DNA of 64,000 bases from Isoperla grammatica (lineage: Eukaryota; Arthropoda; Insecta; Plecoptera; Perlodidae): contig OX246747.1 of the NCBI GenBank assembly GCA_945910005.1, positions 5,576,274-5,640,273 on the forward strand. The letters are read 5' to 3'. Positions within the stretch are counted from its first letter, which is position 1. The number at the start of each line of letters is the position of its first letter. Below the pieces are notes generated by a model. That model saw only the letters and a list, made by a program, of their open reading frames with translations. It did no database searches and was not told where the DNA came from. Of this stretch, positions 75 through 64,000 are shown in pieces. A program made the position numbers and the translations under genes.

Positions 75-385
75 GATTGATTGGTATTTGGGCTGAACGT
101 CTCATATTTTTGCAACTTGGCTAATCGAGACGATGAATGGGTGAAATATGAAGATGAAATTGGGGGCTCTTTGGACGAAAGGGGCAAGTAGGAGGGAGCG
201 TGAGGAAAGGGGAAAGGGGAGGAAAGGGGATTGTAGTGTGGACTGCACTTCGTCTGACTTCTCCCCCTTAACCAGTCCGGCTAGGGTGGCCCTACCAGAA
301 GCATACGCTTCCGCCGGCATAGCTCTCGGGATCAACAAAGCACGCAAACCTACCCACCACGATAAGGTGGCAGTTGTTGGGCAGG
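75..385 (-). mobile_element. SINE, head A + body 2, with target-site duplication
   Basis: Minus-strand copy of the modular SINE. It starts with CCTGCCC at base 385 and ends with the common tail (GTCTCGATTAGCC, GAGACGTT, then ATCAATCAATC) at about 75. The 12-bp direct repeat TCGATTCTTGTT flanks it exactly at 63-74 and 386-397, which fixes both element ends. Body 2 is the pyrimidine-rich type (CCTCCCCTTTCC). The element has no protein-coding capacity; ORFs read through it are shadows. Confidence 0.88.
240..385 (-). ncRNA. Candidate HDV-like ribozyme in SINE head A
   Basis: P1 is CCTGCCC with GGGTAGG (one G-U pair); P3 is ACC/GGT closing the 7-nt loop TTATCGT; the P2 strands pair only over ACTGC/GCAGT in this copy. 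The likely J4/2 sequence is GACGAAGT. The weaker P2 suggests this copy has decayed. Base 385, the first P1 base, is also the element's first base. Confidence 0.5.
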
Positions 386-5438: not shown

Positions 5439-5466
5439 CTGCAAAAGAAAACACCAGTTTAAATAG

Positions 5467-5765
5467 ACCCGTCTGGGCCCGGGGAAGAATAGGCCCAGAG
5501 TGACTCTGCTAGTCGTAAGAGGCGACAAAAGGAGACCCTGTCCCTTCCCCCCCACTGTCCCATTGAATATTTATCCTCCCACTTGGCCCTGCCCTCCCTT
5601 GCTGGACTCCCGTATGACGACTCACGCGACGTACAATGGATCTGACTCGGATGTGGCTTTATTCTTCATCATCATCATTCTCATCTTCATTATCATCCGC
5701 CCATCGTCTCGATTAGCCATCGTTGCATAAATATGAGACGTTAAGTCCCATTAATAAATCAATCA
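5467..5765 (+). mobile_element. SINE, head B + body 1
   Basis: Starts ACCCGTCTGGGCCCGG, continues GAATAGGCCCAGAGTGACTC and GTCGTAAGAGGCGAC, then body 1 (TTGAATATTT, CACGCGACGTACAATGG) and the shared tail with AATCAATC-type repeats. No clear target duplication was found. The head resembles a domain I recall from gastropod and bivalve SINEs. Confidence 0.85.
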
Positions 5766-19189: not shown

Positions 19190-19984
19190 AGGTACACAAG
19201 CGAGGAAACATGCGTTGTCCTCATATGTTGCATGTAGTTGCTCTCATGTCACTGACTAAGCGCAGGGTTTATCAAGTACAGTCACCGTCACAAGCGAGGA
19301 AACATGCGTTGTCTTCATATGTTGCATGTAAATGCTCTCATGTCACTGACTTAGCGCAGGGTGTATCAAGTACAGTCACCTTCACAAGCGAGGAAACATG
19401 CGTTGTCTTCATATGTTGCATGTAATTGCTCTCATGTCACTGACTTAGCGCAGGGTTTATCAAGTACAGTCACCTTCACAAGCGAGGAAACATGTGTTGT
19501 CTTCATATGTTGCATGTAGTTGCTCTCATGTCACTGACTAAGCGCAGGGTTTATCAAGTACAGTCACCGTCACAAGCGAGGAAACATGCGTTGTCCTCAT
19601 ATGTTGCATGTAGTTGCTCTCATGTCACTGACTTAGCGCAGGGTTTATCAAGTACAGTCACCGTCACAAGCGAGGAAACATGCGTTGTCTTCATATGTTG
19701 CATGTTGTTGCTCTCATGTCACTGACTTAGTGCAGGGTTTATCAAGTACAGTCACCGTCACAAGCGAGGAAACATGCGTTGTCCTCATATGTTGCATGTA
19801 GTTGCTCTCATGTCACTGACTTAGCGCAGGGTTTATCAAGTACAGTCACCGTCACAAGCGAGGAAACATGCGTTGTCTTCATATGTTGCATGTTGTTGCT
19901 CTCATGTCACTGACTTAGCGCAGGGTTTATCAAGTACAGTCACCGTCACAAGCGAGGAAACATGCGTTGTCCTCATATGTTGCA
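19190..19984. repeat. 94-bp satellite array, about 8.5 copies
   Basis: The anchor CGAGGAAACATG recurs at 19201, 19295, 19389, 19483, 19577, 19671, 19765, 19859 and 19953, a constant 94-bp period. Units are very alike, differing at few sites. The array ends abruptly where a SINE begins at 19985. Open frames through it (19210-19425, 19492-19725) come from its stop-poor sequence and are not genes. Confidence 0.97.
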
Positions 19985-20130
19985 CCTGCCCAGGGACTGC
20001 CACCTTATCGTGGTGGGCAGGTTTGCGTGCTTTGTTGATCCCGAGAGCTATGCCGGCGGAAGCGTATGCTTCTGGTAGGGCCACCCAAGCCGGACTGGTC
20101 GAGGAGGAGAAGTCAGACGAAGTGCAGTCC
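19985..20130 (+). ncRNA. Candidate HDV-like ribozyme, best-preserved copy
   Basis: Pairings by eye: P1 CCTGCCC (19985-19991) with GGGCAGG; P2 GGACTGC with GCAGTCC (20124-20130); P3 ACC with GGT around the 7-nt loop TTATCGT; a long P4 region holding the hairpin GAAGC-GTAT-GCTTC. The segment GACGAAGT before the P2 3' strand supplies the candidate catalytic C (CGAA). Strand order P1, P2, P3, P3', P1', P4, P2' is that of HDV and CPEB3 ribozymes. Predicted cleavage is 5' of base 19985, freeing the exact element 5' end. Confidence 0.7.
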
Positions 20131-20368
20131 ACACCCCAATCCCCTTTCCCCCCCACTGTCCCATTGAATATTTCTCCTCCCACTTGGCCCTGCCCTCCCT
20201 TGCTGGACTCCCATATGACGACTCACGCGACGTACAATGGATCTGATTCGGATGTGGCTTTATTCTTCATCATCATCTTTCTCATCTTCATTATCACCCG
20301 CTCATCGTCTCGATTAGCCATCGTTGCATAAATATGAGACGTTAAGCCCTATTAATCAATCAATCAAT
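19985..20368 (+). mobile_element. SINE, head A + body 1
   Basis: Begins CCTGCCCAGGGACTGCC directly after a satellite unit and ends in the shared tail with ATCAATCAATCAAT. Body 1 is complete (CCCATTGAATATTTCTCC, CGCGACGTACAATGG). Its 3' end abuts the BED exon at 20371. No duplication is seen, since satellite lies on one side and exon on the other. Confidence 0.92.
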
Positions 20369-20370
20369 AC

Positions 20371-20951
20371 TTCCCGTTCCCGTTTTGCCTGAGTATGCCA
20401 CCAACACGCGACACTTAAGAGCGAAGGATACCTCTACGTCAAAAACCGCAGACAATTTTCATTTTTTATTTATATCTCAAGATTGAAACACAACATCAAA
20501 AATCTGAGACACCATAGCGCTGTGGTTTGGTAATCCCTACACAGTGAATGATAAATGTATTTAACGTTATCATCAGTATGACTGTGATAACGATTTCCTC
20601 AAATTACTAAGGAAATCGTTATCACAGTCATACTGATGATAACGTTAAATACATTTATCATTCAGTGTGTAGGGCTTACCAAACCACAGCGCTATGGTGT
20701 CTCAGATTTTTGATGTTGTGTTTCAATCTTGAGATATAATTAAAAAATGAAATTTTTCTGCGGTTTTTGACGTAGAGGTATCCTACGCTCTTAACACACG
20801 ATGCAAAGGGTACCCGTTTTTGATCAACGCTGATAAGTTTAAAATATTTCCAGGCATCACTTTTAGCTTTATCGTTATCTTCTAGAACAACTCTGTCAGA
20901 GTTTATTTTTATTAACTGTTCAATTGCAGACTTTGTAATACTTTCATTCAT
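20371..20951 (-). pseudogene. hAT-type BED-finger exon split by a MITE
   Basis: Segment 20791-20951 reads MNESITKSAIEQLIKINSDR, then KSDAWKYFKLISVDQKRVPF and ASCV. When one TTAA and the insert 20419-20790 are ignored, the frame continues KCRVLVAYSGKTGTGS up to the SINE at 20370. W-x2-F followed by C-x2-C and an SGKTGTGS turn is the start of a BED zinc finger of hAT transposases. The distal His residues are lost at the SINE junction. Confidence 0.65.
20419..20790. mobile_element. Hairpin MITE (372 bp) in a TTAA site
   Basis: Two ~181-bp arms (20419-20599 and 20610-20790) are near-perfect inverted copies with a 10-nt spacer, starting GAGCGAAGGATACC. TTAA occurs at both edges (20415-20418 and 20791-20794). 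TTAA duplication is typical of piggyBac-mobilised elements. Transcribed RNA would form a very long hairpin. It interrupts the BED exon. Confidence 0.88.
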
Positions 20952-27090: not shown

Positions 27091-27868
27091 AAGAGCTTTA
27101 AGAGCAAACTTCGTATCTAGTAAACTCTTTACACAAAAGCAAATCGACCCCCAACGGGTTTTTCCTGGCAACTTTCAAGATAGTGACTTTCCTTTTTTCT
27201 GTATCTGCATATCTACAAACCGTGCTAAAATCACTTGTGAATTATTTATGTGCTTTAACAATCTTTTTAGCTTGAGCTACAATGAGAGTCACTGAATTTA
27301 GTCTTAGAATGTCTCCAACTAACAGATTCAGAATGTGAGCAACACAACCGTCATTCGAAAGCTTTGCACCATAATCTTCGTTTAACATGTCTCGAGCTTT
27401 TACCGGCTCGTCTCGGCCCGGGGTAGAATAGGCCCAGAGTGACTCTGCTAGTCGTAAGAGGCGACGGAAGGAGACCCTGTCCCTTTCCCCCCCACTGTCC
27501 CACTGAATATTCCTCCTCCCACTTGGACTATGACGACCCACGCGACGTACAATGGATCTGATTCGGATGTGGCTTTTTTCTTCATCATCATATTTCTTAT
27601 CTTCATTATCATCCACTCATCGTCTCGATTAGCCATTGCTGCAAAAATATGAGACGTAAAGTTCCATTAATCAATCAATCGAGCTTTTACTATTGCAGAT
27701 TCATTGTCGGAAACTACAGCAAGGAACTTTACCTTTCCAATTTCCTCGATTACCACTTTCATTTCTTTTTTCATGTTTTCAGCTGTGTGTCGCTCCTTGC
27801 CAATTACAAATTTTCTATAGAATACTAGTGTAGGGGTGGTGATCATGAAATTAACAATGGCTTCATTC
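27091..27868 (-). pseudogene. hAT transposase relic split by a SINE
   Basis: After an acceptor (ctttcag near 27869) the frame reads NEAIVNFMITTPTLVF, KEMKVVIEEIGKVKFLAVVS and DNESAIVKAR up to the SINE. It resumes beyond it as DMLNEDYGAKLSNDGCVAHI, LNLLVGDILRLNS and AKKIV, then in another frame KTRWGSICFCVKSLLDTKFA. The DNE/D motif, C--H-LNL and TRWGS motifs are classic hAT core landmarks. It ends where the Tigger fragment begins. Confidence 0.8.
27404..27679 (+). mobile_element. SINE, head B + body 1 (internally deleted), with TSD
   Basis: Flanked by the exact 11-bp repeat CGAGCTTTTAC (27393-27403 and 27680-27690). The body has lost the CCCTGCCCTCCCTTGCTGG stretch, joining CACTTGGAC to TATGACGACC. 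It sits inside the hAT relic; removing it and one repeat copy restores the hAT frame. Confidence 0.93.
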
Positions 27869-29755: not shown

Positions 29756-30471
29756 TGTGAAGAAAAGGGGTAGACTGAGCCCCCAAGACAGATGTTGTTG
29801 CCTTGATTGGCTTGGGGAGCGTAGCTGATGTTAAGCTACGGGACTCAGTTTTCCCCTAATCTTGACCAGGATCGGGTTTTTTGTGGGTCATGGATCATGC
29901 AGGGTGGACACCATTAAAAGACAGATTCCAGAATACGAGAGTTACGTGTATTGTTCTTAAACCTTCACCCTAGATGGTCATCCCTTTAACTGTTGCACTG
30001 TGGGTTCGGCGTGCGTGGGTACAATTTAATTTAAATAAAAAAAATACACAATCTCACGAAACATCATCCTACCCTCTATGTAGGCTTGGAACAGCGACCC
30101 TGCCAATCCACCGGTCCTGGCACGCCCCTCGGTCGGATCCCCGGTCAAGTCCTCGTTGCCACCCTTCTACTGTACGCACCCGCTCTCGTCCCTTCTCCGA
30201 CCAACCAGCCTCTCGTTCGAACAGCCAAACCTCTTCTCCCCGTCTCACCGTAGTCCATTTCACAAAACCAAATCTCCCTGACTCAGGTGTTCTTCACGAT
30301 ACCCGTTCGTTGCTCGCTCCCGACAAAGTGTTGAAATCCTGACACATGCACATTCCACGGGTACACTCAACTTGTGCATGCGTCTAGTTAGGATTGCAAC
30401 ATATCCGGTAGAGCAGTCAATAACTTGTATCGAAAAGAACAGAAGAAGACCATAAAATGGTCTTCTTCACA
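29756..30471 (-). repeat. LTR copy 1 of the 4.86-kb element (3' LTR if minus orientation is right)
   Basis: Appears identical to 33901-34616 over all compared stretches; open frames translate to the same proteins in both copies. Identity implies recent insertion, because LTRs are equal when an element integrates. Confidence 0.93.
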
Positions 30472-33900: not shown

Positions 33901-34616
33901 TGTGAAGAAAAGGGGTAGACTGAGCCCCCAAGACAGATGTTGTTGCCTTGATTGGCTTGGGGAGCGTAGCTGATGTTAAGCTACGGGACTCAGTTTTCCC
34001 CTAATCTTGACCAGGATCGGGTTTTTTGTGGGTCATGGATCATGCAGGGTGGACACCATTAAAAGACAGATTCCAGAATACGAGAGTTACGTGTATTGTT
34101 CTTAAACCTTCACCCTAGATGGTCATCCCTTTAACTGTTGCACTGTGGGTTCGGCGTGCGTGGGTACAATTTAATTTAAATAAAAAAAATACACAATCTC
34201 ACGAAACATCATCCTACCCTCTATGTAGGCTTGGAACAGCGACCCTGCCAATCCACCGGTCCTGGCACGCCCCTCGGTCGGATCCCCGGTCAAGTCCTCG
34301 TTGCCACCCTTCTACTGTACGCACCCGCTCTCGTCCCTTCTCCGACCAACCAGCCTCTCGTTCGAACAGCCAAACCTCTTCTCCCCGTCTCACCGTAGTC
34401 CATTTCACAAAACCAAATCTCCCTGACTCAGGTGTTCTTCACGATACCCGTTCGTTGCTCGCTCCCGACAAAGTGTTGAAATCCTGACACATGCACATTC
34501 CACGGGTACACTCAACTTGTGCATGCGTCTAGTTAGGATTGCAACATATCCGGTAGAGCAGTCAATAACTTGTATCGAAAAGAACAGAAGAAGACCATAA
34601 AATGGTCTTCTTCACA
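33901..34616 (-). repeat. LTR copy 2 of the 4.86-kb element
   Basis: Matches 29756-30471 from TGTGAAGAA to TTCTTCACA. The primer-binding-like TGGTGGAGG sits immediately inside, on the minus strand. Confidence 0.93.
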
Positions 34617-35495
34617 CTATCACCTTGGGTCTAGAAGAGTACTGGGTTAGACATAGGGGTAAGAGGGCATTCTTAATGTTATTTGAATTGTCTTCGATGT
34701 GATTCGCTCCTGCAATGATTATCAGCGTGTGGTTTACACTTGATCCATCCAATGCTTGTGCAAGTCCCTCCGTGACAGCTATGGCTCCCGCTCCAGGTTT
34801 AACCATCGAGTTTACTTTATATCTGCCCCTTTGTCCACACGTAGACTTAAGTTTATCACTTATCAACGATGCCAAGAATCTCCCGTGACTATCAGCCATG
34901 ATTGTTATGTTATGGACAGGGTCGCTCGCGGAGTATTCATTATCAGTTGGTTTCCGATCCTGTGCGATAGTCGTGGTGCTGGCGCTATCTTTGGAAATGT
35001 TCACGAACTCTGTCCTTTGTACTTCATTCGCGCTTCTTCGCTGCTGCGTTGTTTCTATGGCGGCGGTTACGCTAACGTCACTGCCGGGCATGTCCTTACT
35101 TAACCTTACTTTTAGATTCTCAATTTCCCTTTGCATTGATTCAACTTGAAATACTAGCTCACCGATTTTTTGTTCGCATTTGCATTCGTTATAACTTTTA
35201 ATTCTTGAATCTACGACAGGTAGAATTGAGGTCTCGTTTCCTAGAATGGGCTTGAGGATAGGCCTATTAGGCCCAGGCCTTGGCTGAGCTTCATCATTAG
35301 GCTGCCGTACGCAAACACGGCAAAAGTTACTAGGCCTACCTTGCGAGTGTGCACATTTATTATGTACCCAATTTGTGCATCGTGAACACTGAAACCCATT
35401 ACCACTTGTTTTATAGCACACGGAACACTTTTTGCATGTTTTTGAATTAAATATAACGGAGCTTCTTGAATAAAAAAAAAAAAAAAAAAAATCAC
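34612..35495 (-). pseudogene. CR1-like LINE ORF1: PHD-like finger and esterase domain
   Basis: The 269-residue frame starts with a zinc finger (CYKTSGNGFQCSRCTNWVHN, then C), runs through a Ser/Pro linker and a coiled-coil stretch, and then enters a GDSL/SGNH-like fold (ITIMADSHGRFLASLISDKL, KPGAGAIAVTEG, LIIIAGANHIEDN). PHD plus esterase is the layout of CR1/L2-group ORF1. The motif usually ending GTND reads GANH here. The frame is cut at KVIV by the LTR element and resumes at 29755, so it was open until then. The overlapping frame 35241-35495 covers the finger shifted after an A-run at 35469-35490. Confidence 0.8.
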
Positions 35496-35640
35496 ATTTT
35501 GAGTCTACCCACTCAGTAATTAAACTGATTTGCAGTGGGGGACTTTAATTTAAAGTGACTAAACCAACCCTGTAGGCTTCGAACACCATCGACGAGTGAG
35601 CGATAACCAATCAAAGATCGATATTTCAAATACGAGTTAC
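35496..35640 (-). repeat. 5' UTR-like segment of the CR1-like LINE
   Basis: GGGGGACTTTAATTTAAAGT, CAGTAATTAAACTGATTTGC and surrounding sequence recur in opposite orientation at about 47265-47400. Lying just upstream of ORF1, it is best read as the LINE 5' region. Confidence 0.65.
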
Positions 35641-36276: not shown

Positions 36277-36483
36277 TCACAGAGAAGAGTTTGACGATAA
36301 AGGGGAAAATGGAATGGAAGATGAAGAGGATAAAGCACTCAAAGGTATCGATACATTTTTGACTTGAAGTGGGTTTATGGTGTGTAGGGAGGATAACAAC
36401 TCGTCGATCGACACAAAATATGGCCACTTGATGGTGGTAGGAACATTATCTTCAGTGCTGATGCCAGTTGATGGATATTTCAT
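36277..36483 (-). pseudogene. Second copy of the Myb/SANT accessory-gene segment
   Basis: MKYPSTGISTEDNVPTTIKW followed by PYFVSIDELLSSLHTINP aligns with KTPRSGVSTEDGNIGPISWQ YFEPMDAILGDRHIINP in the gene at 3937-5438. It is a diverged paralogue of the exon-3 start. The upstream side is cut at 36481 by a SINE insertion, and the Ser-rich tail is short. Confidence 0.6.
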
Positions 36484-36494
36484 GATCTATAACA

Positions 36495-36606
36495 CCTGCC
36501 CAGCGACTGCAACCTTATCGTGGTGGGCAGGTTTGCGTGCTATAAGAATCCCGAGAGCTATGCCGGCTGAAGCGTATGCTTCTGGTAGGCCCACCCTAGC
36601 CGGACT
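36495..36606 (+). ncRNA. Partial HDV-like ribozyme head (P2 3' strand missing)
   Basis: P1 CCTGCCC/GGGCAGG and P3 ACC/GGT with loop TTATCGT are intact. The sequence leaves head A before the GACGAAG and GCAGTCC segments, so this copy cannot close P2 and should be inactive. Confidence 0.6.
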
Positions 36607-36908
36607 GGCTACTTACTAAGAAACGAACCGTCCCCAGTATGCGATGTATGTAATGTTTTGACTGTAAAACACATTCTAATTGAATGTAACAAATATAATA
36701 ATGAAAGAAGAGAGTTTAATTTAAAACCCTCACTTAAAGACAACTTATCAGACGAATTCAAAGTAATCAATAACATATTTCGTTTTCTGCAAGATAATCG
36801 TTTAGTATCACTTATGTAATCGAACATAGTAACAATATTAAAATAACATAGGCACTGATAACCTTGCTGTTTTGTGCCTTTAAACTCAAAGAATAATAAT
36901 AATAATCA
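36607..36908 (+). pseudogene. LINE C-terminus and 3' UTR fragment
   Basis: Frame reads TYLLRNEPSPVCDVC, LTVKHILIECNKYNNERREF, then DNRLVSLM and stop. It parallels the LINE end at 50774-51087 (PVCDACN-TLTVKHIILDC). After the stop come AGGCACTGATAACC and GTTTTGTGCCTTTAAAC, then AATAATAAT, the same 3' signature. One base is missing near 36655, so the frame is broken. Confidence 0.78.
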
Positions 36909-36976
36909 TCCAATCATCGTCTCGATTAGCCAGGTTGCAAATATATGAGACGTTAAGCCCAAATATCTATCAATCA

Positions 36977-37122
36977 CTTGCCCAGGGATTGCTACCTTAT
37001 CGTGGTGGGCAGGTTTGTGCGCTTTGATGATTCCTGGAGCTATACCGGCGGAAGCGTATGCTTCTGGTAGGGCCACCCTAGCCGGACTGGTCGAGGAGGA
37101 GAAGCCAGACGAAGTGCAGTCC
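36977..37122 (+). ncRNA. Candidate HDV-like ribozyme
   Basis: P1 CTTGCCC/GGGCAGG (one T-G wobble), P2 GGATTGC/GCAGTCC (wobble kept), P3 ACC/GGT with loop TTATCGT, and GACGAAGT before P2'. Both changes relative to the 19985 copy keep pairing as G-U. Confidence 0.62.
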
Positions 37123-37283
37123 ACACCCCAATCCCCTTTCCTCCCCTTTCCCCTTTCCTCACGCGCCCTCCTACTTGCCCCTTTCCTCCAAACAGCCCCC
37201 TATTGCATCTTCATCTATCACCCACTCATTGTCTCGATTAGCCCCGTTGCAAAAATATGAGACGTTAAGCCCAAATTTCAATC
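36977..37283 (+). mobile_element. SINE, head A + body 2, nested in SINE tail
   Basis: Flanked by the exact 12-bp repeat ATCTATCAATCA (36965-36976 and 37284-37295), which is SINE tail sequence. Body 2 (CCTCCCCTTTCCCC) and tail are complete. It inserted after the composite element around it. Confidence 0.88.
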
Positions 37284-37409
37284 ATCTATCAATCAATCAT
37301 GATCTATAACAAAGCAAAAACAACAATTGATATATGACCTAACTATTTAATCAGTGGATCCGCCGAGGTTCTGCAACAGACGGCTGTAACACTGCGCCGT
37401 TTTTGGCGT

Positions 37410-38262: not shown

Positions 38263-38263
38263 G

Positions 38264-38561
38264 ACCCGTCTCGGCCCGGGGTAGAATAGGTCCAGAGTGA
38301 CTCTGCTAGTCGTAAGAGGCGACAAAAGGAGACCCTGTCCCTTTCCCTCCCACTGTCTCATTGAATATTTCTCCTCCCACTTGGCTCTGCCCTCCCTTGC
38401 TGGACTCCCATATGACGAACCACGCGACGTACAATGGATCTGATTCGGATCTGGCTTTATTCTTCATCATCATCTTTCTCATCTTCATTATCACCCGCTC
38501 ATCGTCTCGATTAGCAATTGTTGCAAAAATATGAGACTTTAAGCCCCATTAATCAATCAAT
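38264..38561 (+). mobile_element. SINE, head B + body 1
   Basis: Starts ACCCGTCTCGGCCCGGGG and ends CCCCATTAATCAATCAA. Body and tail are complete with few substitutions. It directly follows the reversed LINE 3' end; no duplication identified. Confidence 0.88.
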
Positions 38562-38668
38562 GAACTATCTATGATTACTTCTTTGGTGACGTGGAAAGGT
38601 TAAACCACAAAATATAACGGTAGCGTTATTACTTGTAAGAAGCAGTATCAACTAAAAATGTTAGGGAA

Positions 38669-39265
38669 TTATGAGACAGGATAACTGAATTGGGAATATA
38701 GTTTTAAGAATTGGAGTTTGAAAACAAATTTCTCAGTTGGTCTGCTTAGGGCCTGTTGAATCTTGTAGCAATCAATGCTGCCCGCACAGCGTCTCCTCTG
38801 TTGCGAATGGCCAGATCCTGTGCTGAATGCTGCAACACCCAATGCATCACCCTCATTGCCAGGTACAATATCTGGCGGATCTTCTGGAAGAGGAACATTG
38901 TTTTCAATGCAAATATTGTGCAGTACACAGCAAGCACCGATCATCTTCACAACCTTAGCAGGGGTGTACAACAGTGTGCCGGCTCTAGAGAGACACAACT
39001 ACCTGATCTTTAGCACACCGAATGCCCCTTCAACAACATTCCTTGTTGACCTGTGACGTTCGTTGTAATGCCGTTCTTCCTGTGTAACAGGTCGCAATAC
39101 TGGCACCATGAGGCGGAACTGCTGTGGATAACCACTGTCGCCAAGCAGCCAGGTTGAAGGAGGTAGATTTGCATTGTGTAAATGCCTTCTCAGCTCACTG
39201 TTATTGTAGATGTGCGAGTCATGGGCCGAGCCAAGCCAACGGGCACCGATGTCCAGAAACTTCTA
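38669..39265 (-). pseudogene. PIF/Harbinger (HARBI1-like) transposase, C-terminal half
   Basis: From 39265 downward: KFLDIGARWLGSAHDSHIYN, WLLGDSGYPQQFRLMVPV, YNERHRSTRNVVEGAFGVLK, then LHNICIENNVPLPEDP and a C-terminal tail. GSAHDSHIY and GDSGY carry the second-D region of the DDE domain and VVEGAFGVLK carries the catalytic E. An in-frame TAG at about 39000 interrupts an otherwise open frame. The N-terminal half, with the HTH and first D, is missing beyond the SINE at 39266. Confidence 0.87.
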
Positions 39266-39633
39266 ACCCGTCTGGGCCCGGGAAAGAATAGGCCCAGGGT
39301 GACTCTGCCAGTCGTAAGAGGCGACGAAAGGAGACCCTGTCCCTTCCCCCGCCCCCCCGTCCTACTGAAGATTTCTCCTCCCACTTGGCCCTGCCCTCCC
39401 TTGCTGGACTCCCCTTATGACGACTTCCGCGATATAGACGGACCTGATTCGGAAGACGTCATATGACTTCACCCCAATCCCCTTTCCTCCCCTTTCTCCT
39501 TTCCTTCCGCGCCCTCCTACTTGCCCCTTTCCTCCAAACAGCCCCATATTTCATCTTCATATATCACCCACTCATTGTCTCGATTAGCCTCGTTGCAAAA
39601 ATATGAGACGTTAAGCCCAAATATCAATCAATC
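39266..39633 (+). mobile_element. SINE chimera: head B + partial body 1 + body 2
   Basis: Head B (ACCCGTCTGGGCCCGG) leads into body 1 up to GACCTGATTCGGA, then switches at about 39465 to body 2 (CACCCCAATCCCCTTTCC, TTGCCCCTTTCCTCC) and the tail. It is the only copy in the window with both bodies. It terminates the HARBI1 frame. Confidence 0.88.
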
Positions 39634-48323: not shown

Positions 48324-48490
48324 GAAGTGCAGTCCACACCCCAATCCCCTTTCCTCCCCTTTCCTCACGCTCCCTCCTACTTGCCCCTTTCCTCCAAACA
48401 GCCCCATATTTCATCTTAATATATCACATACTCATTGTCTCGATTAGCCTCGTTGCATAAATATGAGACGTTAAGCCCAAATAATCAAAT
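48324..48490 (+). mobile_element. SINE body 2 + tail, 5'-truncated
   Basis: Begins within the head-body boundary (GAAGTGCAGTCCACACC) and continues through body 2 and the common tail to AAATAATCAAA. Head A is missing except for its P2 3' strand, so no ribozyme remains. Confidence 0.85.
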
Positions 48491-50184: not shown

Positions 50185-50381
50185 GACTTGGCCCCCTGGT
50201 CATGCAAGCATTCTTGGTAACGAGGTGGCAGATCGATATGCCAACGAAGCCTGTACTACTGACAGCAACGACTGTCAATTAATTATAACTGCGTACCTGA
50301 AAGCGTCTTTTAAACGTTATTTTAAGAAGCTATGGCATAACGAGTGGCAGAGCATACGAAACAACAAACTAAGAGAAATAA

Positions 50382-50527
50382 CCTGCCCAGGGACTGCCAC
50401 CTTATCGTGATGGGCAGGTTTGCGTGCTTTGTTGATCCCGAGAGCTATGCCGGCGGAAGCGTATGCTTCTGGTAGGGCCACCCAAGCCGGACTGGTCGAG
50501 GAGAAGAAGTCAGACGAAGTGCAGTCC
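50382..50527 (+). ncRNA. Candidate HDV-like ribozyme
   Basis: P1 CCTGCCC/GGGCAGG and P2 GGACTGC/GCAGTCC are perfect. P3 is ACC/GAT, with a mismatch in the middle pair. Loop TTATCGT and GACGAAGT are unchanged. The P3 mismatch would probably weaken activity. Confidence 0.62.
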
Positions 50528-50762
50528 ACACCCCAATCCCCTTTCCCCCCCACTGTCCCATTGAATATTTCTCCTCCCACATGGCCCTGCCCTCCCTTGC
50601 TGGACTCCCGTATGACGACTCACGCGACGTACAATGGATCTGATTCGGATGTGGCTTCATTCTTCATTATCATCTTTCTCATCTTCATTATCACCCGCTC
50701 ATCGTCTCGATTAGCCATCGTTGCATAAATATGAGACGTTAAGCCCCATTAATCAATCAATC
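50382..50762 (+). mobile_element. SINE, head A + body 1, with TSD, inside the LINE
   Basis: Exact 11-bp repeat AAGAGAAATAA at 50371-50381 and 50763-50773. All modules are complete, and the sequence is very close to the copy at 19985. The first base after the duplication is the first base of ribozyme P1. Removing it restores the LINE frame. Confidence 0.95.
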
Positions 50763-51136
50763 AAGAGAAATAAAAGACTCTGTAACTCCATGGCTTTCCT
50801 CCCGGCGCTCATGTCGCCACGAGGAAGTGGTTTTAACTCGCGTCCGAATCGGTCACACCTATATTACTCAGAGCTATCTTCTAAAAAGTGAACCCCAACC
50901 AGTGTGTGATGCTTGTAATGTGACATTGACTGTCAAACACATCATTTTAGATTGTGCAAAGTATTTAGCCGAACGACAAAGATATAAGATAAAATCCACA
51001 CTAATAGAAAACCTGTCAAATAAAACTGACGCAACCGACAACATTTTAAAGTTCCTTAAATCAATTAACCTTATAAACAAGATTTAAATAGGAAAAATAG
51101 GCACTGATAACCCAGATGTTTTGTGCCTTTAAACCA

Positions 51137-51138
51137 CA

Positions 51139-51222
<84 letters not shown>
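51137..51222 (+). repeat. AAT trinucleotide tail of the LINE
   Basis: About 28 AAT/TAA units directly after the LINE 3' UTR. Length suggests expansion of the LINE's own tail. Confidence 0.95.
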
Positions 51223-51314: not shown

Positions 51315-51742
51315 CTAATCATCATCACTCAAGTATTCCTGGAGAATCTCCATCACACGGCGTTTGCACTGTGCACGTCGCTTGTTCCCTTTTTTTTCCC
51401 CCACTATTCTTCCCACGTCTTGGCCAAAAGTGGTTTCATCTCCACCGTCTTGTGAGGCCGTGGTCCTGTTTCCCATGAAAGTGGTGAGTTGCTGGAAAGA
51501 TTGCTTCAGCACATCCGCAAGTTCTTCGTTTTTCCGTTATTTAACGGCGTGAAACTTGTCTGGCGGCTGTAATGATGTTGAAGCCTCGTACGGCACTTTC
51601 ATAAGGTTCGCCACAGCAGGCGAGGAAAATCGGGATGGGAAATAAACTAACGGCGAAGAGGATCGGGTTGAAAATGTCTGCAAAGGGGGTATGATGGATG
51701 AGCCTGTGCTGGCTGAACTGAGTTGACTAAAAAGAAGTTGTG
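51315..51742 (-). pseudogene. C-terminal exon of a transposon-derived DNA-binding-type protein
   Basis: Minus frame: LFSQLSSASTGSSIIPPLQT, Ser/Pro-rich, AVANLMKVPYEA, an in-frame TAA at about 51538, then RKNEELADVLKQSFQQLTTF, KGNKRRAQCKRRVMEILQEY and LSDDD stop. A Ser-rich linker followed by a helix and a basic/acidic tail resembles the ends of MADF/SANT proteins. The upstream DNA-binding domain would lie beyond the SINE at 51743. Confidence 0.38.
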
Positions 51743-51986
51743 ACCCGTCTCGGCCCGGGGACGAATAGGCCCAGAGTGACTCTGCTAGTCGTAAGAGGCG
51801 ACAAAAGGAGACCCTGTCCCTTCCCTCCAACTGTCCCACTGAATATTTCTCCTCCCACTTGGCCCTGCCCTCCCTTGCTGGACTCCCGTATGACGACCCA
51901 CGCGACGTTCAATGGATCTGATTCGGATTTGGCTTTATTCTTCATTATCATCTTTCTCATCTTCATTATCACCCGCTCATCGTCTC
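51743..51986 (+). mobile_element. SINE, head B + body 1, tail truncated
   Basis: Starts ACCCGTCTCGGCCCGGGG and ends at CGCTCATCGTCTC where Penelope-like sequence begins. The tail after GTCTC is missing, so the junction with the Penelope element is secondary. Confidence 0.88.
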
Positions 51987-52667
51987 AATCATTGATCATC
52001 CCTCCTCGTACGATCCCTACTAAAAACCCGTCGAAACAAATCGTTGGGATATCCATTCTTAATGAATGCCTGAGCTAGATGTTGTAACTCGTTTTCCACC
52101 AAGACATTAGTAGAACAGTTAGTCGAAGCCCTATTGGCTAGACACTTCATAACACCATGTTTAACATGGGTCGGATGATTAGAGTCAGCTCTAATGTATT
52201 GATCAGTATGAGTAGGCTTCCTATAAACCTTAGTTATCAAACCCAACTTAGTTTTGGTAATAAACAAATCAAGAAAAGGAAGTGAAGCCTCCTTTTCTTC
52301 TTCAATTGTAAACTTGATGTCCGGGTGAAAACCGTTAAGTTCATTTAGAAGTACAAGCAACTCATCATGAGACCCACGATAGATGGCTAGAACATCGTCT
52401 ACGTAACTGAGCCATAGATCAGGAGACAAAGAACTCACCTGTAAAACCTCCGGTTCCAGATGGTCCATATACAGGTCAGCTAATATCGGCGAGAGGCAGC
52501 TACCCATGGCTAGGCCATCAAGTTGCAGGAAATGTTGTCCATTGAACTCGACGTAGCAATTGTTGAGGCAGAGAGTTAAAAGTTCCATGATGTTGTCAAC
52601 CGGCATGCAAGTTCTGTGGAAGAGAATTATCGGAGGAGAGTTTGCGTCTTACTATAGCTATAGTCCA

Positions 52668-54933
52668 AGAGCCAGCAACATAAAAGCTCCCCTCATAAGG
52701 TACATATGTTTTGACTATTGGAATAGGAGCGGAAAAACTACTCTTCTAACAAAACGCGCGTCTTACTCCTCAACGTGGGGGCTTTTAGGCTCCACAGGGG
52801 GCCAAAAAAGCCGAAAAAAGGCCCAAGTTCCCCTCATAAGGTACATGGTAGGTCTCGATGGCAAATGAACCGGAAATGTTAGTACAAATAGAAAATACTG
52901 AGTCAGACGGGCTGAGTGGGGGCTTTACCCGAGACAGACGCCCTCAAAAAGGGCCCAAAAAGGCCAAGGTTCCCCTCATAAGGTACATGGATGGAGTAAA
53001 CGCCATTTTGTAGAGATAAGTGTCCCAAATAGGAATTCGAAGAGTAAGACGGGATATTAGAGGGCGTTTACCGATCAGACGCCATTTTACCCAAAAAGAG
53101 CCATTTTTTATTTACGCACATGCATGCGCTTAAACACTCAAATCATATCCGGAAATGTCTCTAGACGTAGAAAAACATACATTTTAAAGAAATTTTGGGT
53201 TATTGTCCTCGCCAGGAAAGGGGCCCAAAAAGGCCAAGGTTCCCCTCAAAAGGTACATGGATGGAGTAAACGCCATTTTGTAGAGATAAGTGTCCCAAAT
53301 AGGAATTCGAAGAGTAAGACGGGATATTAGAGGGCGTTTACCGATCAGACGCCATTTTACCCAAAAAGGGCCATTTTTTATTTACGCACATGCATGCGCT
53401 TAAACACTCAAATCATATCCAGAAATGTCTCTAGACGTAGAAAAACATACATTTTAAAGAAATTTTGGGTAATTGTCCTCGCCAGGAAAGGGGCCCAAAA
53501 AGGCCAAGGTTCCCCTCAAAAGGTACATGGATGGAGTAAACGCCATTTTGTAGAGATAAGTGTCCCAAATAGGAATTCGAAGAGTAAGACGGGATATTAG
53601 GGGGCGTTTACCGATCAGACGCCATTTTACCCAAAAAGGGCCATTTTTTATTTACGCACATGCATGCGCTTAAACACTCAAATCATATCCAGAAATGTCT
53701 CGAGACGTAGAAAAACATCCATTTTAAAGAAATTTTGGGTTATTGTCCTCGCCAGACGCCCTCAAAAGGGGCCCAAAAAGACCAAGGTTCCCCTCATAAG
53801 GTACATGGATGGAGTAAACGCCATTTTGTAGAGATAAGTGTCCCAAATACGAAATCGAAGAGTAAGACGGGATATTAGGGGGCGTTTACCGATCAGACTT
53901 CATTTTGTCCAAAAAGGGCCACTTTTTATTTTCACACGTGCATGCGCTTTAACACCCAAAACATATCCTTAAATGCCCCTAGACGTGAATACATTTCAAA
54001 GATGTTGTGTACGCCCGGACGCATCACCGCTGGGGGGTATCACATCCACAAACATATTATGATCCATCCACATAGCAACTTACTCTCCAGAAGGAAGTGG
54101 ATGGGATCGAGGCTGTGGGGGCGTCCGGCGAGGACATCACACAATATCTTTGAAATGTATTCACCTCTAGGGGCATTTAAGGATATGTTTTGGGTGTTAA
54201 AGCGCGTGCACTTGAGAAAATAAAAAGTGGCCCTTTTTGGACAAAATGGCGTCTGATCGGTAAACACCCCCTAATATCCCGTCTTACTCTTGGAATTCCT
54301 ATTTGGGACACTTATCTCTACAAAATGGCGTTTACTCCATCCATGTACCTTTTGAGGGGAACCTTGGCCTTTTTGGGCCCCTTTCCTGGCGAGGACAATA
54401 ACCCAAAATTTCTTTAAAATGTATGTTTTTCTACGTCTAGAGACATTTCCGGATATGATTTGAGTGTTTAAGCGCATGCATGTGCGTAAATATAAAATGG
54501 CCCTTTTTGGGTAAAATGGCGTCTGATCGGTAAACGCCCTCTAATATCCCGTCTTACTCTTCGAATTCCTATTTGGGACACTTATCTCTACAAAATGGCG
54601 TTTACTCCATCCATGTACCTTATGAGGGGAACCTTGGCCTTTTTGGGCCCTTTTTGAGGGCGTCTGACTCGGGTAAAGCCCCCACTCAGCCCGTCTGACT
54701 CAGTATTTTCTATTTGTACTAACATTTCCGGTTCATTTGCCATCGAGACCTACCATTTACCTTATGAGGGGAACTTGGGCCTTTTTTCGGCTTTTTTGGC
54801 CCCCTGTGGAGCCTAAAAGCCCCCACGTTGAGGAGTAAGACGCGCGTTTTGTTAGTAGAGTAATTTTTCCGCTCCTATTCCAATAGTCAAAACATATGTA
54901 CCTTATGAGGGGAGCTTTTATGTTGCTGGCTCT
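52668..54933. mobile_element. Foldback element (2.27 kb) with long inverted arms
   Basis: AGAGCCAGCAACATAAAAGC at 52668 is repeated inverted, ending at 54933. The outer ~290 bp of the arms are nearly identical, with about five differences by eye. Left arm 52668-54020 and right arm 54118-54933 surround a ~97-bp centre. Arms carry tandem ~270-bp units, four on the left and two on the right, explaining the length difference. No transposase is encoded. No clear target duplication is seen at the Penelope junctions. Confidence 0.93.
52957..54020 (+). repeat. Tandem ~270-bp units in the left foldback arm
   Basis: The phrase GGCCAAGGTTCCCCTC begins units near 52962, 53232 and 53502, with a diverged fourth near 53780. 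Units 2 and 3 are almost identical, the fourth more diverged. The 68-residue frame at 53124, 53394 and (minus) 54271 is just the unit read through and not a gene. Confidence 0.93.
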
Positions 54934-56851: not shown

Positions 56852-59773
56852 CTACTCTCTCCTAAGGTGCTTTTCGATCAACTCGAGAACTGCTGCCATC
56901 TTCTCCATTGCTGCAGCCTGTCGCAGTTGGGCCGCAATTTGCCGTTCACCCTGTTCTAGAAGTCTCGACATTGGGCCATCCCCCTCCCTGATAAAAATTA
57001 AATAACATTATTAATATCATTGATATCATAACAATGTTCTTTAAACGCCTTTGTTGTTGAATGATAACAATTGTCATAAAATGTTTTCAGATGGGGGATC
57101 GAACCTATATCCTCCGGCTTTATGTACCGATGCTCTACCAACTGAGCCATATTGGGTCTGGGAGACCTGGGCGGGACAGAAATATGTTGTCTGCCACTGG
57201 CCCACAACCAAACCACCAAGTTAAAACTCAGCCCACAACCCGCAATTTTTGAAATCTTTATTTGCACCCACATCCGCGGGAGTTCAACAATAAATGAAAA
57301 TAACACTGGATTCTTTTAATAAATTTGCATTTATGGCATCATTATAATGTGACACATATGGGGCTGGGGCACATATTTGGCCATGTGATCATTCAGTTAA
57401 CGACTGTTACAGCGCAGTCTTCTGTTCGATTTCCATCCTCGTATAATAATCACTACAAAGAAGCAATAAGTAGAAGTTGTGTTTCCATGACCCGATACTA
57501 GCTCAGTTGGTATATCACCGGTACGTAAAGCCGGAGGATCTGGATCGATCTCCAGTTGGGAAACATTTTGACGACAATTGCTATCATTAAACGACATAAC
57601 ATTGATATCAATAATATGATACAATTATTTGAACATGGGTAATTAATAATGAAAGCCTAAATAATACATACCCTGTAGATCCATCTGTCTGTGTGCTGCC
57701 ATCACAAATGGCCATTCCGTCGTTGAAACTATCTAGTGTTTGCCATGACGAGCTAGCCACCGCTGGCATGTTAGTCGGCAAACTGGTCGATGGCCTCGAT
57801 GGGCAAACGGGCAAACTGGTCGATGGCCTCGATGGGCAAACGGGCAAACTGGCCGATGGTCCCGATGGGCAGACGGGTAGATCATCATCTGCATATACAC
57901 ATTATATTTTGTATTTTACTTGGATGTTGCAAATAAAAAATATATATTTTAAACATAAATTTGTGTTTTTATTGTATTTTCTACCTACCACTTCCACCAC
58001 CAACTTCCATACCTCCGGGTATACCAGAGAGTGATGTCTCCCCAATTAACGCCGCAGCTCTTTCAACAAGTGGGTCCAATATTTCTGGACGTGTTCCAGA
58101 GTCGGTCCGCGTAACATCTTTGCGATATTGTACAACTGGAATAGGTTCAATTTATTGCAAATACAATTCAAATTGTATGATAACCTATAATATGATTTCA
58201 TTAAAAAATACTAATCGTAACTAAAGCTAACGTTTTTATAAAACCCGCCCAGCTGAGAAGGCAGTGTGTCACTTATTTTCCTGACAATTGTGTCGATTAT
58301 AGGGTATACAAAATATTTCAGAGCATATAAATTACAAATCATGACAAAGAATGTGCATGGACAAGTAATAGAGGCCTAGGGCCCAACCCTATTATTTTGT
58401 AATGAGGCCTTCATTAAAATTTGGGCGCTTCAGGCTTATGGAGATCTACAATGTGTCTGTCTTATCCACTAAATTATAAAAACTTAACCTGCCCAGGGAC
58501 TTGCTACCTTATCGCGGTGAGCAGGTTTGCGTGTTTTAATGATTCTTAGAGCTATGCCGGCGGAAGCGTATGCTTCTGGTAGGGCCACCCTAGCCGGACT
58601 GGTCGAGGAGGAGAAGTCAGACGAAGTGCAGTCCACACCCCGATCCCCTTTCCTTCCCTTTCCCCTTTCCTCACGCGCCCTCCTACTTGCCCCTTGCCTC
58701 CAAACAGCCCCTTATTTCATCTTCATATATCACCCACTCATTGTCTCGATTAGCCTCGTTGCAAAAATATGAGACGTTAAGCCTAAATAATCAATCAAAA
58801 CTTTATATTTTTTCAAATATGAATGTTCTAAATTCTCAGAAATTCTTACTAGGCCAATAAATTATTTAACATTATGGGCCTATAGTTAGCTTTGCCTCAT
58901 GCATCTTTTACTCAATTAAGCAGGCCTATAGGCCCAAGCCAAGGTCCACTAGATCGCTTGTAGCGCGCGCGAAGTAAGGTCATCTAACCTATTTCCATAA
59001 TGTTAAAAATCCCATGTTATTCAAATGGGAGAATCATTCAGAAAAACAAATGAATTGATCTGTCAAAACAAATTATGGGCCAAAAAGACAAAATAACAAT
59101 CGGTAATGAGATTTTGTCTTCACATTCTATATATATATATTTTGTAATACTTTACGCGTAAATTCACATTATTGGTGAGGATTATTTAAATAAAAATGTG
59201 ATTTTTGTAGTTGGATCCAAAATGGCGATTTTGGATCTCATTCAATGACCTTACTTTGCGCTTCGCAATTACTCCGCTAGGAGTAAATCCAGTAGACCTT
59301 GGGCCCAAGCAAGCGTAGGCCCAGCCCAGCCTAGTGGTATATCCTAGGCCTAGGCCTAAATAGACCCAAGCAACTTAGATAGCCATAGGCCAAGGTTGGT
59401 AAAACCAGGTAAAACAGTATAATATCTAGCAGTAGCCTAGACCTAGGCTTAACAAAAAAAGTGATGCATAGACTGTTAGGCATACGATTTTAAATAAACA
59501 TCATATTGTGGGTATAGGCTACCTACTCTTTGCCTTCGACTTCTTTTTAAAGTCCTTCCACTTCAACTTGATATCGTCAATCGAGCGAATCACCCCCGAC
59601 CCCACAGCATTGACTGCTTTGCAGATTTCAACCCAGCCACGATCTTTTTTACTTTTCGTTATTATTGGACCAAATTTAGACGATAAAATTTCTGAGTACT
59701 TCTCGAAAGTAGTAATTAATACCTCGAGCTCTTCCCGTGTAAAACGAGCTTTACGAGTCTTGGTATTTTCCAT
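56852..59773 (-). CDS. NAIF1-like Myb/SANT protein gene, four exons
   Basis: Exon 1, 59519-59773, starts MENTKTRKARFTREELEVLI and contains DRGWVEICKAVNAVGSG and IKLKWKDFKKKSKAKSR: a Myb/SANT-like domain of the Harbinger-associated (PF13873) type with W and KWKDFK helix landmarks. Exon 2, ~57990-58138, gives VQYRKDVTRTDSGTRPEILD and SGIPGGMEVGG, the conserved TRT-SG and GIPGG linker. Exon 3, ~57672-57889, has three CPS-RPSTSLP repeats from a 33-bp coding minisatellite. Exon 4, 56852-56989, ends in a charged helix, LIEKHLRRE, and stop. Borders are GT/AG-like and exons lack stops, so the gene may be intact. A SINE and tRNA-type repeats sit in its introns. No Harbinger transposase lies beside it. 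Confidence 0.7.
57000..57185 (-). mobile_element. tRNA-related SINE copy, minus
   Basis: Minus strand: TATGGCTCAGTTGGTAGAGC (A box), GCCGGAGGATATAGG, GGTTCGATCCCCCATCTG (B box), then a non-tRNA tail TGACAATTGTTATCATT. The A and B box spacing matches tRNA, but the tail and second copy at 57480 mark it as a SINE. Confidence 0.62.
57480..57625 (+). mobile_element. tRNA-related SINE copy, plus
   Basis: TAGCTCAGTTGGTATATCAC, AAAGCCGGAGGATCTGGATC, GATCTCCAGTTGGGAAACAT and GACAATTGCTATCATT. It matches the minus copy at 57000-57185, so the two form a loose inverted repeat in the intron of the Myb/SANT gene. Confidence 0.6.
58488..58634 (+). ncRNA. Decayed HDV-like ribozyme head
   Basis: P1 CCTGCCC pairs with GAGCAGG (one mismatch); P2 5' strand reads GGACTTGC with an extra T against GCAGTCC; P3 ACC/GGT is intact, with loop TTATCGC. 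Two lesions suggest loss of activity. Confidence 0.45.
58488..58798 (+). mobile_element. SINE, head A + body 2
   Basis: Starts CCTGCCCAGGGACTTGC; body 2 and tail complete to AATAATCAATC. AAAACTT is repeated at both edges (with TAA or TA following), so a 7-9-bp target duplication is likely. It lies in intron 1 of the Myb/SANT gene, opposite strand. Confidence 0.9.
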
Positions 59774-62430: not shown

Positions 62431-62441
62431 TTGTACCATCA

Positions 62442-62712
62442 GCAGGTTTGCGTGCTTTGTTGACCCCGAGAGCTATGCCGGCGGAAGCATATGCTTCTGG
62501 TAGGGCCACCCTAGCCGGACAGGTCGAGGAGGAGAAGTCAGACGAAGTGCAGTCCACACCCCAATCCCCTATCCTCCCCTTTCCCCTTTCAACCCCGCCC
62601 TCCTATTTGCCCCTTTCCTCCAAACAGCCCCCTATTTCATCTTCATATATCACCCACTCATTGTCTCGATTAGCCTCGTTGCAAAAATATGAGACGTTAA
62701 GCCCAAATATCA
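62442..62712 (+). mobile_element. SINE, 5'-truncated head A + body 2, with TSD
   Basis: Begins inside the P1 3' strand (GCAGGTTTGCG). Flanked by the exact 11-bp repeat TTGTACCATCA (62431-62441 and 62713-62723), so truncation happened at insertion, as with incomplete reverse transcription. It splits the transposase between EMI and TIGNFL. Confidence 0.93.
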
Positions 62713-63083
62713 TTGTACCATCATGCCTGGATTAAATCATTTCTAGCATAGGAACTATTGTGTCCTTAACGTGTGTCACACCGGTATAGTTCAAGACTTT
62801 TCGCCTATTTACTTTAATTTTCCGGAAAACTGAGCCTGTTGCATCGAAGTAAAGGACAGGTAGATGTTTTGCTACCGCTTTCCTTACAAATGTGTTTTAA
62901 TACATCTAGTTGTTCTCTGCTATACATGTATACTTGAAGGGGGCTAGCTACTTTCTGTATATACATATATTCGCGAGTCAACGAATTGAATTGATTTTCA
63001 TGTTTGAAATACAAATATAAAAAATCATGTGTATAGAGGTCATTTTCCGATAACCATTTGAACGAATTTTTCTTAATACGGCA

Positions 63084-63229
63084 CCTGCCCAAGGACTGCT
63101 ACCTTATCGTGATGGGCAGGTTTGTGTGCTTTGATGATCCCGAGAGCTATGCCGGCGGAAGCGTATGCTTCTGGTAGGGTCACCCTAGCCGGACTGGTCG
63201 AGGAGGAGGAGTCAGACGAAATGCAGTCC
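63084..63229 (+). ncRNA. Candidate HDV-like ribozyme
   Basis: P1 CCTGCCC/GGGCAGG and P2 GGACTGC/GCAGTCC perfect; P3 ACC/GAT with a middle mismatch as in the copy at 50382; loop TTATCGT; GACGAAAT before P2'. Confidence 0.58.
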
Positions 63230-63392
63230 ACACCCCAATCCCCTTTCCTCCCCCTTCCCCTTTCCACCCCACCCTCCTATTGTCCCCTTTCCTCCAAACA
63301 GCCCCCTTTTTCATCTTCATATATCACCCACTCATTGTCTCGATTAGCCTCGTTGCAAAAATATGAGACGTTAAGCCCAAATAATCAAATCA
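63084..63392 (+). mobile_element. SINE, head A + body 2
   Basis: Starts CCTGCCCAAGGACTGC and ends AAATAATCAAATCAA. All modules present. No target duplication could be assigned. It cuts off the 5' end of the transposase frame at 63085. Confidence 0.88.
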
Positions 63393-64000
63393 AGTTAAAC
63401 CATATATAACAGCAAACGTTTACTTGCCAATGGCTGAGTTTCGCATTTTTAAATTGCATTTTTTGGTGTTAAAAGCAGCAAATTTTATTTTAAACCTATT
63501 TGTGAACGTAGCTGTAACAAACGCATTGTTAACAAAGATCTCCTGCCATTCACTGTGGGCAAATTCAAATTCACCCAACCAAACATTACATTTCCCCCAC
63601 GATCGTCGGTTTTGATAGCACCAGGGCTTCTCGATGTAGGCCTACTGTCTATGGGTGGATTGATCTGTACAGGATTTTTGATACGAGTTTCGTCAAGGGC
63701 AATGTGATTTTTTTGTCAGTACCAACATATACAAGTCTTAGCTATATTCGGGCCACATTGTTTCACTGACGACGCTGTCATTGGCTTACACCCATTGTTT
63801 GTCTACCAGTAAGCGACAAGTGTAGTGGTCTGAGCTCACTCCCCCCACATGCAGAACAGCAGCACAGCAGAACATGGTTTTTGGTTTTTGGAGCTGGAAA
63901 TACTTGGAGCTAAAAGCACACACGCAAGGTGTTTACGTGTTAACTTTGTTGCTAACCTTAAGCTCATTTTGGTGTCTTTTTCATAAAAGTCTTCTTTACA
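63393..64000. other. Right-edge region
   Basis: A minus frame at about 63424-63600 reads WLGEFEFAHSEWQEIFVNNA and may be an N-terminal exon of a repeat-encoded protein, unconfirmed. Otherwise no feature. Confidence 0.3.

Follow-up and report, generated by a model that had tools for sequence, protein, structure and literature searches.

A candidate HDV-like self-cleaving ribozyme at the 5' end of a short non-coding retroelement family

Ribozyme-headed retroelements and the head-A family

HDV-like ribozymes have been described in R2 and other LINEs, and twister ribozymes in RTE elements as an unpublished observation (PMC7761336). Among non-autonomous elements, the R2 and R2/R1 hybrid SIDEs of Drosophila are not transcribed by pol III and combine a 5' HDV-like ribozyme with a LINE-type 3' end (PMC3414825). 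The same source gives reasons against calling R2 SIDEs SINEs, reports template jumps and describes 14-bp target site duplications (TSDs) at the R2/R1 hybrids, the ribozymes of which have been shown to cleave. In trypanosomatids, Pr77 HDV-like ribozymes head the NARTc, RIME and SIDER elements of the L1Tc/ingi clade, with cleavage mapped to C1 in L1/NARTco and several SIDERs (PMC4035085). Pr77 of L1Tc bears CGTG at +25 to +28 and CCACC at +16 to +20; CGTG is a pol II promoter element in L1Tc, and Pr77 has been called a dual promoter/ribozyme (PMC4748587).

We analyzed a window of 64,000 nucleotides from Isoperla grammatica that contains eight copies of a non-coding repeat, approximately 310–380 nt long when intact, which share a 5' part termed head A. 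The best explanation of head A, and one that we consider probable, is that it is an HDV-like self-cleaving ribozyme occupying the 5'-terminal ~146 nt of a LINE-mobilized, non-autonomous element. So read, these elements resemble the Drosophila SIDEs in being non-autonomous and apparently not pol III-transcribed, and in the proposed pairing of a 5' ribozyme with a LINE-type 3' end (PMC3414825). They differ in that R2 SIDEs sit at fixed 28S gene sites, whereas head-A copies lie at unrelated places in the window, and in that the head-A ribozyme, with its large P4, is predicted from sequence. With NARTc, RIME and SIDER they share small size and a lack of coding capacity, and the Pr77 CGTG and CCACC motifs have counterparts at matching positions in six and three, respectively, of the seven complete head-A 5' ends; Pr77, however, belongs to a known LINE and measures 77 nt, whereas head A spans ~146 nt with a conserved multi-stem P4. 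A downstream stretch attenuates L1Tc (PMC4035085), a parallel to the competing fold described below. Metazoan retrozymes are likewise non-coding, ribozyme-bearing (a predicted property here), non-LTR elements of animals, but they carry hammerheads in short tandem repeats and form circular RNAs, whereas head-A copies are single units with tails (PMC7229834, PMC7761336); an Rfam search of the whole window, with E values of up to 1 accepted, returned no hammerhead. In open-licence PMC papers, no title among the matches listed concerned dispersed short elements of animals that begin with an HDV-like ribozyme, and sequence strings found no match in paper texts.

Seven of the eight copies begin at the same base, and the 3' part of all eight contains GAGACGTT(A/C)AGCC, after which AATC-type repeats usually come (Table 1); a head-less piece lies at 48324-48488. 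The copies bear marks of target-primed reverse transcription, namely TSDs, the AATC-type tails and, in A8, 5' truncation with a TSD at the truncation point. A repeat that ends at -1 and recurs downstream of the tail was found at five of the seven copies with complete starts (weakly at A6), a count made without a shuffle control. The 11-bp TSD that the sequence-only reading had placed directly before P1 of A2 is among these and was confirmed. The base at -1 is A at all seven complete starts. Since the target also has A at this position at the five copies with TSDs, as does the satellite holding A1, the first element base may be A or C; the 7-bp P1 favors C in the predicted fold. Variable R2 5' junctions have been ascribed to microhomology priming (PMC3774820). 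The satellite consists of 94-bp tandem units (19195-19984) and its last base directly precedes A1; shortly after A1 lies a near-perfect 380-bp palindrome (95%; 20415-20794), a foldback element within which weak Rfam mir-2 matches fall. A2 is inserted in a decayed LINE end (50333-51160) that shows, by eye, a C-x2-C-x7-H-x4-C pattern, together with a GGCAC...GTGCC hairpin and a (TAA)n tail.

Table 1. Window coordinates of the head-A and head-B elements and of the fold predicted for head A in copy A1
Feature	Coordinates	Strand	Details
Element A1	19985..20366	+	long body, GAGACGTTAAGCCC and AATC-repeat tail; TSD search negative
Element A2	50382..50762	+	98% identity to A1; 11-nt TSD AAGAGAAATAA (50371-50381 / 50763-50773); C.A in P3
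Element A3	75..385	-	short body; 12-nt TSD AACAAGAATCGA (386-397 / 63-74); two outer P2 pairs missing
Element A4	36495..37297	+	chimera, A5 inside; 14-nt TSD CATGATCTATAACA (36481-36494 / 37298-37311)
Element A5	36977..37283	+	within A4 tail; 12-nt TSD ATCTATCAATCA (36965-36976 / 37284-37295); every predicted ribozyme pair present, two as G-U
Element A6	58488..58796	+	mismatch in P1; weak 9-nt TSD, one mismatch (58479-58487 / 58797-58805)
Element A7	63084..63395	+	C.A in P3; TSD search negative; 3' end approximate
Element A8	62442..62712	+	head A 5'-truncated; own 11-nt TSD TTGTACCATCA (62431-62441 / 62713-62723)
Head B, five copies	5466-5765, 27404-27678, 38263-38565, 39265-39633, 51742-51989		unrelated to head A, on the same bodies
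P1 5' strand	19985..19991	+	CCTGCCC; predicted cut directly before 19985
P2 5' strand	19994..20000	+	GGACTGC
P3 5' strand	20002..20004	+	ACC; same P3 in RF02682 alignment
L3 loop	20005..20011	+	TTATCGT, 7 nt
CGTG	20009..20012	+	element positions +25 to +28; DPE place in L1Tc Pr77
P3 3' strand	20012..20014	+	GGT
P1 3' strand	20015..20021	+	GGGCAGG
P4 domain	20029..20113	+	closing stem GCTTT/GAAGT; upper part with three stems
CGAA, J4/2	20118..20121	+	candidate catalytic C at 20118 (sequence only)
P2 3' strand	20124..20130	+	GCAGTCC

A4 and A5 form a nested pair of insertions (36495-37311), A5 within the tail of A4, each with a clear TSD. A4 itself runs from ~114 nt of head-A start through a 5'-truncated LINE 3' fragment, comprising a C-terminal reading frame and a TAA repeat, to the common tail, all enclosed by its single TSD. 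The arrangement looks like template jumping; insertion with deletion is possible. We rejected A4 as proof of a LINE carrying head A because its LINE fragment terminates in a TAA repeat of its own before the common tail begins, and no LINE sharing head A and tail was seen within the window. A search for further head-A copies found no match in viral and prokaryotic DNA collections, a result that says little since the window's own genome may be missing from them; when head A was read as peptide against a protein collection, none of four candidates passed, and for the ORF at 34612-35541 none passed among 910.

A second, unrelated head, head B (GACCCGTCTCGGCCCGGGG...GTCGTAAGAGGCGACAAAAGGAGACCC), sits on the same bodies: long and short bodies each occur with both heads, copy B5 being, by inspection, head B on a short body. 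Head-B copies carry the common tail, except the truncated copy at 51742, and B2 is flanked by the TSD TCGAGCTTTTAC (27392-27403 / 27679-27690). Head B is highly conserved across its five copies and, by eye, partly self-complementary; as a second ribozyme it was rejected, with no relevant Rfam match in B3, the single copy searched, or in the whole window. Head B and the tail may resemble mollusc repeats. Elsewhere, the window contains identical 716-bp direct repeats, LTR-like and 3.4 kb apart (29756-30471 and 33901-34616), and a large inverted repeat with ~270-bp tandem units (52668-54933), beside which lies a reverse-transcriptase frame (RVT_1; 51989-52648) that is presumably Penelope-type.

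A double-pseudoknot prediction and its sequence variation

Rechecking of coordinates in A1 upheld the P1, P2 and P3 pairings proposed by the sequence-only reading and their nested double-pseudoknot order. The CGAA that it had placed before the last strand is also present, and recurs in 7/7 heads retaining that stretch. P1 is strict at six of seven complete head starts, with one mismatch in the seventh (A6); P3 is intact in 5/7; and L3 reads TTATCGT in six of the seven copies that have it, A6 differing in the last base (TTATCGC). Six heads retain both strands of P2, which forms 7 bp in four (one with a G-U), 5 bp in A3 and a bulged helix in A6. Every pair is kept in only A1 and A5 of these six; three have a P1 or P3 mismatch (A2, A6 and A7), and the fourth, A3, lacks two P2 pairs. 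A6 combines a C.A in P1 with its P2 bulge and is predicted to be weak or dead, since P1 mismatches, reported as uncommon, may account for lost activity (PMC3774820). P1.1 would amount at best to one weak A-U pair from L3 to J1/4 (by inspection), and in A1 and A2 one of the upper-P4 stems is interrupted by an A.A mismatch.

Parts of this predicted core resemble those of known ribozymes. CCUCCUCGUGG is the most conserved stretch among compared R2 5' ends (PMC5035012), and CCUUAUCGUGG of head A matches it at 9 of 11 positions. L3 of head A retains the U, C and G reported as conserved in PMC3774820; silkmoth R2, according to the same source, has a J4/2 of C plus three nucleotides, whereas that of head A is longer by the two extra nucleotides between CGAA and P2. 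Nothing HDV-like emerged from a whole-window Rfam search at E up to 1. A regional search of 176 nt at A1 gave RF02682 (HDV-F-prausnitzii) as the best of four matches (16.6 bits, E 0.46), with model position 1 at 19985 and P1, P3 and L3 in register, the helices ungapped. A5 scored 15.7 bits (E 0.74), again aligned from the element's first base. Both scores, from two heads searched singly, fall far under the gathering score of 44, so we treat the match as a pointer rather than an identification; the model has 74 positions, and its P4 is thus much shorter than that of head A.

How often such an arrangement arises by chance was estimated with two descriptors, both designed after the head was seen and the R2 literature read, which makes the figures optimistic; the head-A copies, all one family, count as one event. 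The full descriptor required a 7-bp P1 with at most one G-U, a 3-bp P3, an L3 of 6–8 nt, a P2 of at least 6 bp and C[AG]NA before the P2 3' strand. When the head was dinucleotide-shuffled 100,000 times, no shuffle satisfied it at the head start; 133 satisfied P1 and P3 alone. On both strands of the window it matched A1, A5 (using a P2 3' strand other than the homologous one), A2 (in a shifted register) and two unrelated places, against ~1.6 matches expected by chance in the two strands (23 in 29 Markov strands of 64 kb). The narrower test combined the core CCTNNNCGYG (CCTNNNCG[TC]G) with an adjoining 7-bp P1 and did not demand P3 pairing. Of the seven complete head starts, six matched strictly and one with a single mismatch; elsewhere in the window the test gave no strict match and one with a single mismatch; 1094 Markov strands of 64 kb yielded 14 strict matches and 248 with one mismatch or better. 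Three other CCTNNNCGTGG sites (48077, minus; 52768, plus; 54823, minus) were rejected for want of a full 7-bp P1 at HDV distance. By these estimates, the predicted double-pseudoknot geometry lies far above chance.

Variation among the copies gives this geometry no further support. The sequence-only reading held that substitutions often keep pairing as G-U; we counted three kept against six broken changed cells in P1–P3, or five broken without A4, in which the P2 3' strand is missing. By helix, P1 has two kept and one broken, P2 one kept and three broken (one in A4) and P3 none kept and two broken, while changes in the P4 closing stem are three kept and none broken. By transitions alone, half of all pairs would survive as G-U, so the kept pairs are no sign of selection. 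A check for covariation in the eight copies of this one window found no double change in P1–P3, and we rejected covariation as support, the ratio of kept to broken pairs being about that of unselected transitions. Pairwise difference is 0.108 across columns 1–38 (the P1–P3 core), 0.161 in lower P4 and 0.105 on its 3' side, and drops to 0.028 in upper P4 and 0.026 in CGAA with the P2 3' strand. These last two vary least within the head, so the 5' core strands are not its most constrained part.

Head A also has competing folds. In its nested minimum fold (-54.7 kcal/mol), P3 is longer and CGAA is paired to the stretch that follows P1; for the pseudoknotted fold, the stacks of P1 and P3 sum to -25.1 and those of P2 to -15.5, while folding of the P4 domain gives -29.3, with pseudoknot and loop costs left out. 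GGACTG at 20092-20097 is an alternative partner for the P2 3' strand, and RNAalifold, a method blind to pseudoknots, returned a nested fold for the eight heads.

Promoter, ribozyme or both

The sequence-only reading had described the ribozyme as the exact 5' end of a SINE family. The common 5' end stands; the SINE label is doubtful, as no pol III promoter was detected. In a scan with box consensus sequences, the best pair of A and B boxes was not significant, being equalled in 43 of 300 shuffles for A1 and 122 of 300 for A5. A degenerate A box (TGGTCGAGGAGG) is matched at every position and has no accompanying B box. As a control, a tRNA-like stretch on the minus strand (57149-57091) has good A and B boxes, which 0/300 shuffles equalled. 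This stretch, with an Rfam tRNA score of 25.1 bits (gathering 29) and no tRNA called there by ARAGORN, is perhaps a true tRNA-derived SINE. With no pol III promoter detected, the head-A element appears closer to a SIDE, a non-autonomous LINE derivative headed by a ribozyme, than to a true SINE.

We propose that the element, having no detected pol III promoter, would be copied inside longer host transcripts. The nascent RNA would fold P1, P2 and P3 around the large P4 and cut itself directly before the first C, freeing an RNA that would start at the element's first base and end in the GAGACGTTAAGCCC(AATC)n tail. A LINE acting in trans would then recognize this tail and reverse transcribe the RNA into a new site, producing a TSD. 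Self-cleavage before the first C would leave full-length copies with a common start base, which is the pattern of seven of the eight.

An exact 5' end could also come from initiation rather than cleavage, if the head acted as an internal promoter for pol II, with CGTG as its downstream element. CGTG does occur at +25 to +28 in six of seven complete 5' ends, the same place as in L1Tc Pr77 (PMC4748587), and a core that evolves faster than upper P4 and shows no covariation suits a promoter as well. A promoter, however, needs no joint 7-bp P1, 7-bp P2 across ~120 nt and CGAA, the combination that no shuffle in 100,000 reproduced; and since the L1Tc sequence carrying this CGTG is reported as a ribozyme too, the motif cannot separate the two functions. 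We regard a promoter alone as unlikely. A dual module like that of L1Tc, acting as a pol II promoter in DNA and as a ribozyme in RNA, would overlap with our preferred explanation and would accommodate both the Pr77 position match, which extends to CCACC at +16 to +20 in three of seven complete 5' ends, and the high degree of conservation beyond the catalytic core. A positional match of four letters is weak evidence, though, and we hold this reading to be doubtful.

The core mismatches in four of six complete heads, with more broken than kept changes, would fit a ribozyme that was once active at a LINE 5' end and is now dead baggage, the present copies moving otherwise. Against this stand A1 and A5, which have all pairs, and the seven of eight copies that start at the predicted cut. 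We give this reading a small probability; it overlaps in part with a self-cleaving head A, which requires active source copies only. Chance complementarity within a structured LINE leader seems very improbable to us: nested alternatives of similar size exist and the tests were designed after the head was seen, but the shuffle and Markov tests and the RF02682 register at A1 and A5 argue against it. The explanation that we favor remains an HDV-like ribozyme in a SIDE-like element.

A broader possibility, which we offer as speculation with little confidence, is that head A and Pr77 descend from one ancient pol II promoter/HDV-like ribozyme module, which LINEs would have carried from a time before the divergence of their hosts and which has been captured here by swappable non-coding elements, with an enlarged P4 that has a further constrained role. 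Capture by swappable elements is suggested by the presence of heads A and B on the same bodies and by A4, which joins head A to a LINE fragment.

The origin of the exact 5' ends of promoter-less short retroelements is known for few cases. The positional match to Pr77 makes the question of promoter, ribozyme or both directly testable here. Should head A cleave, the known range of non-autonomous elements headed by ribozymes would widen from the rDNA-bound R2 SIDEs and the trypanosomatids to include dispersed elements of another host, and the swapping of heads and bodies would be a route for the transfer of ribozymes between elements.
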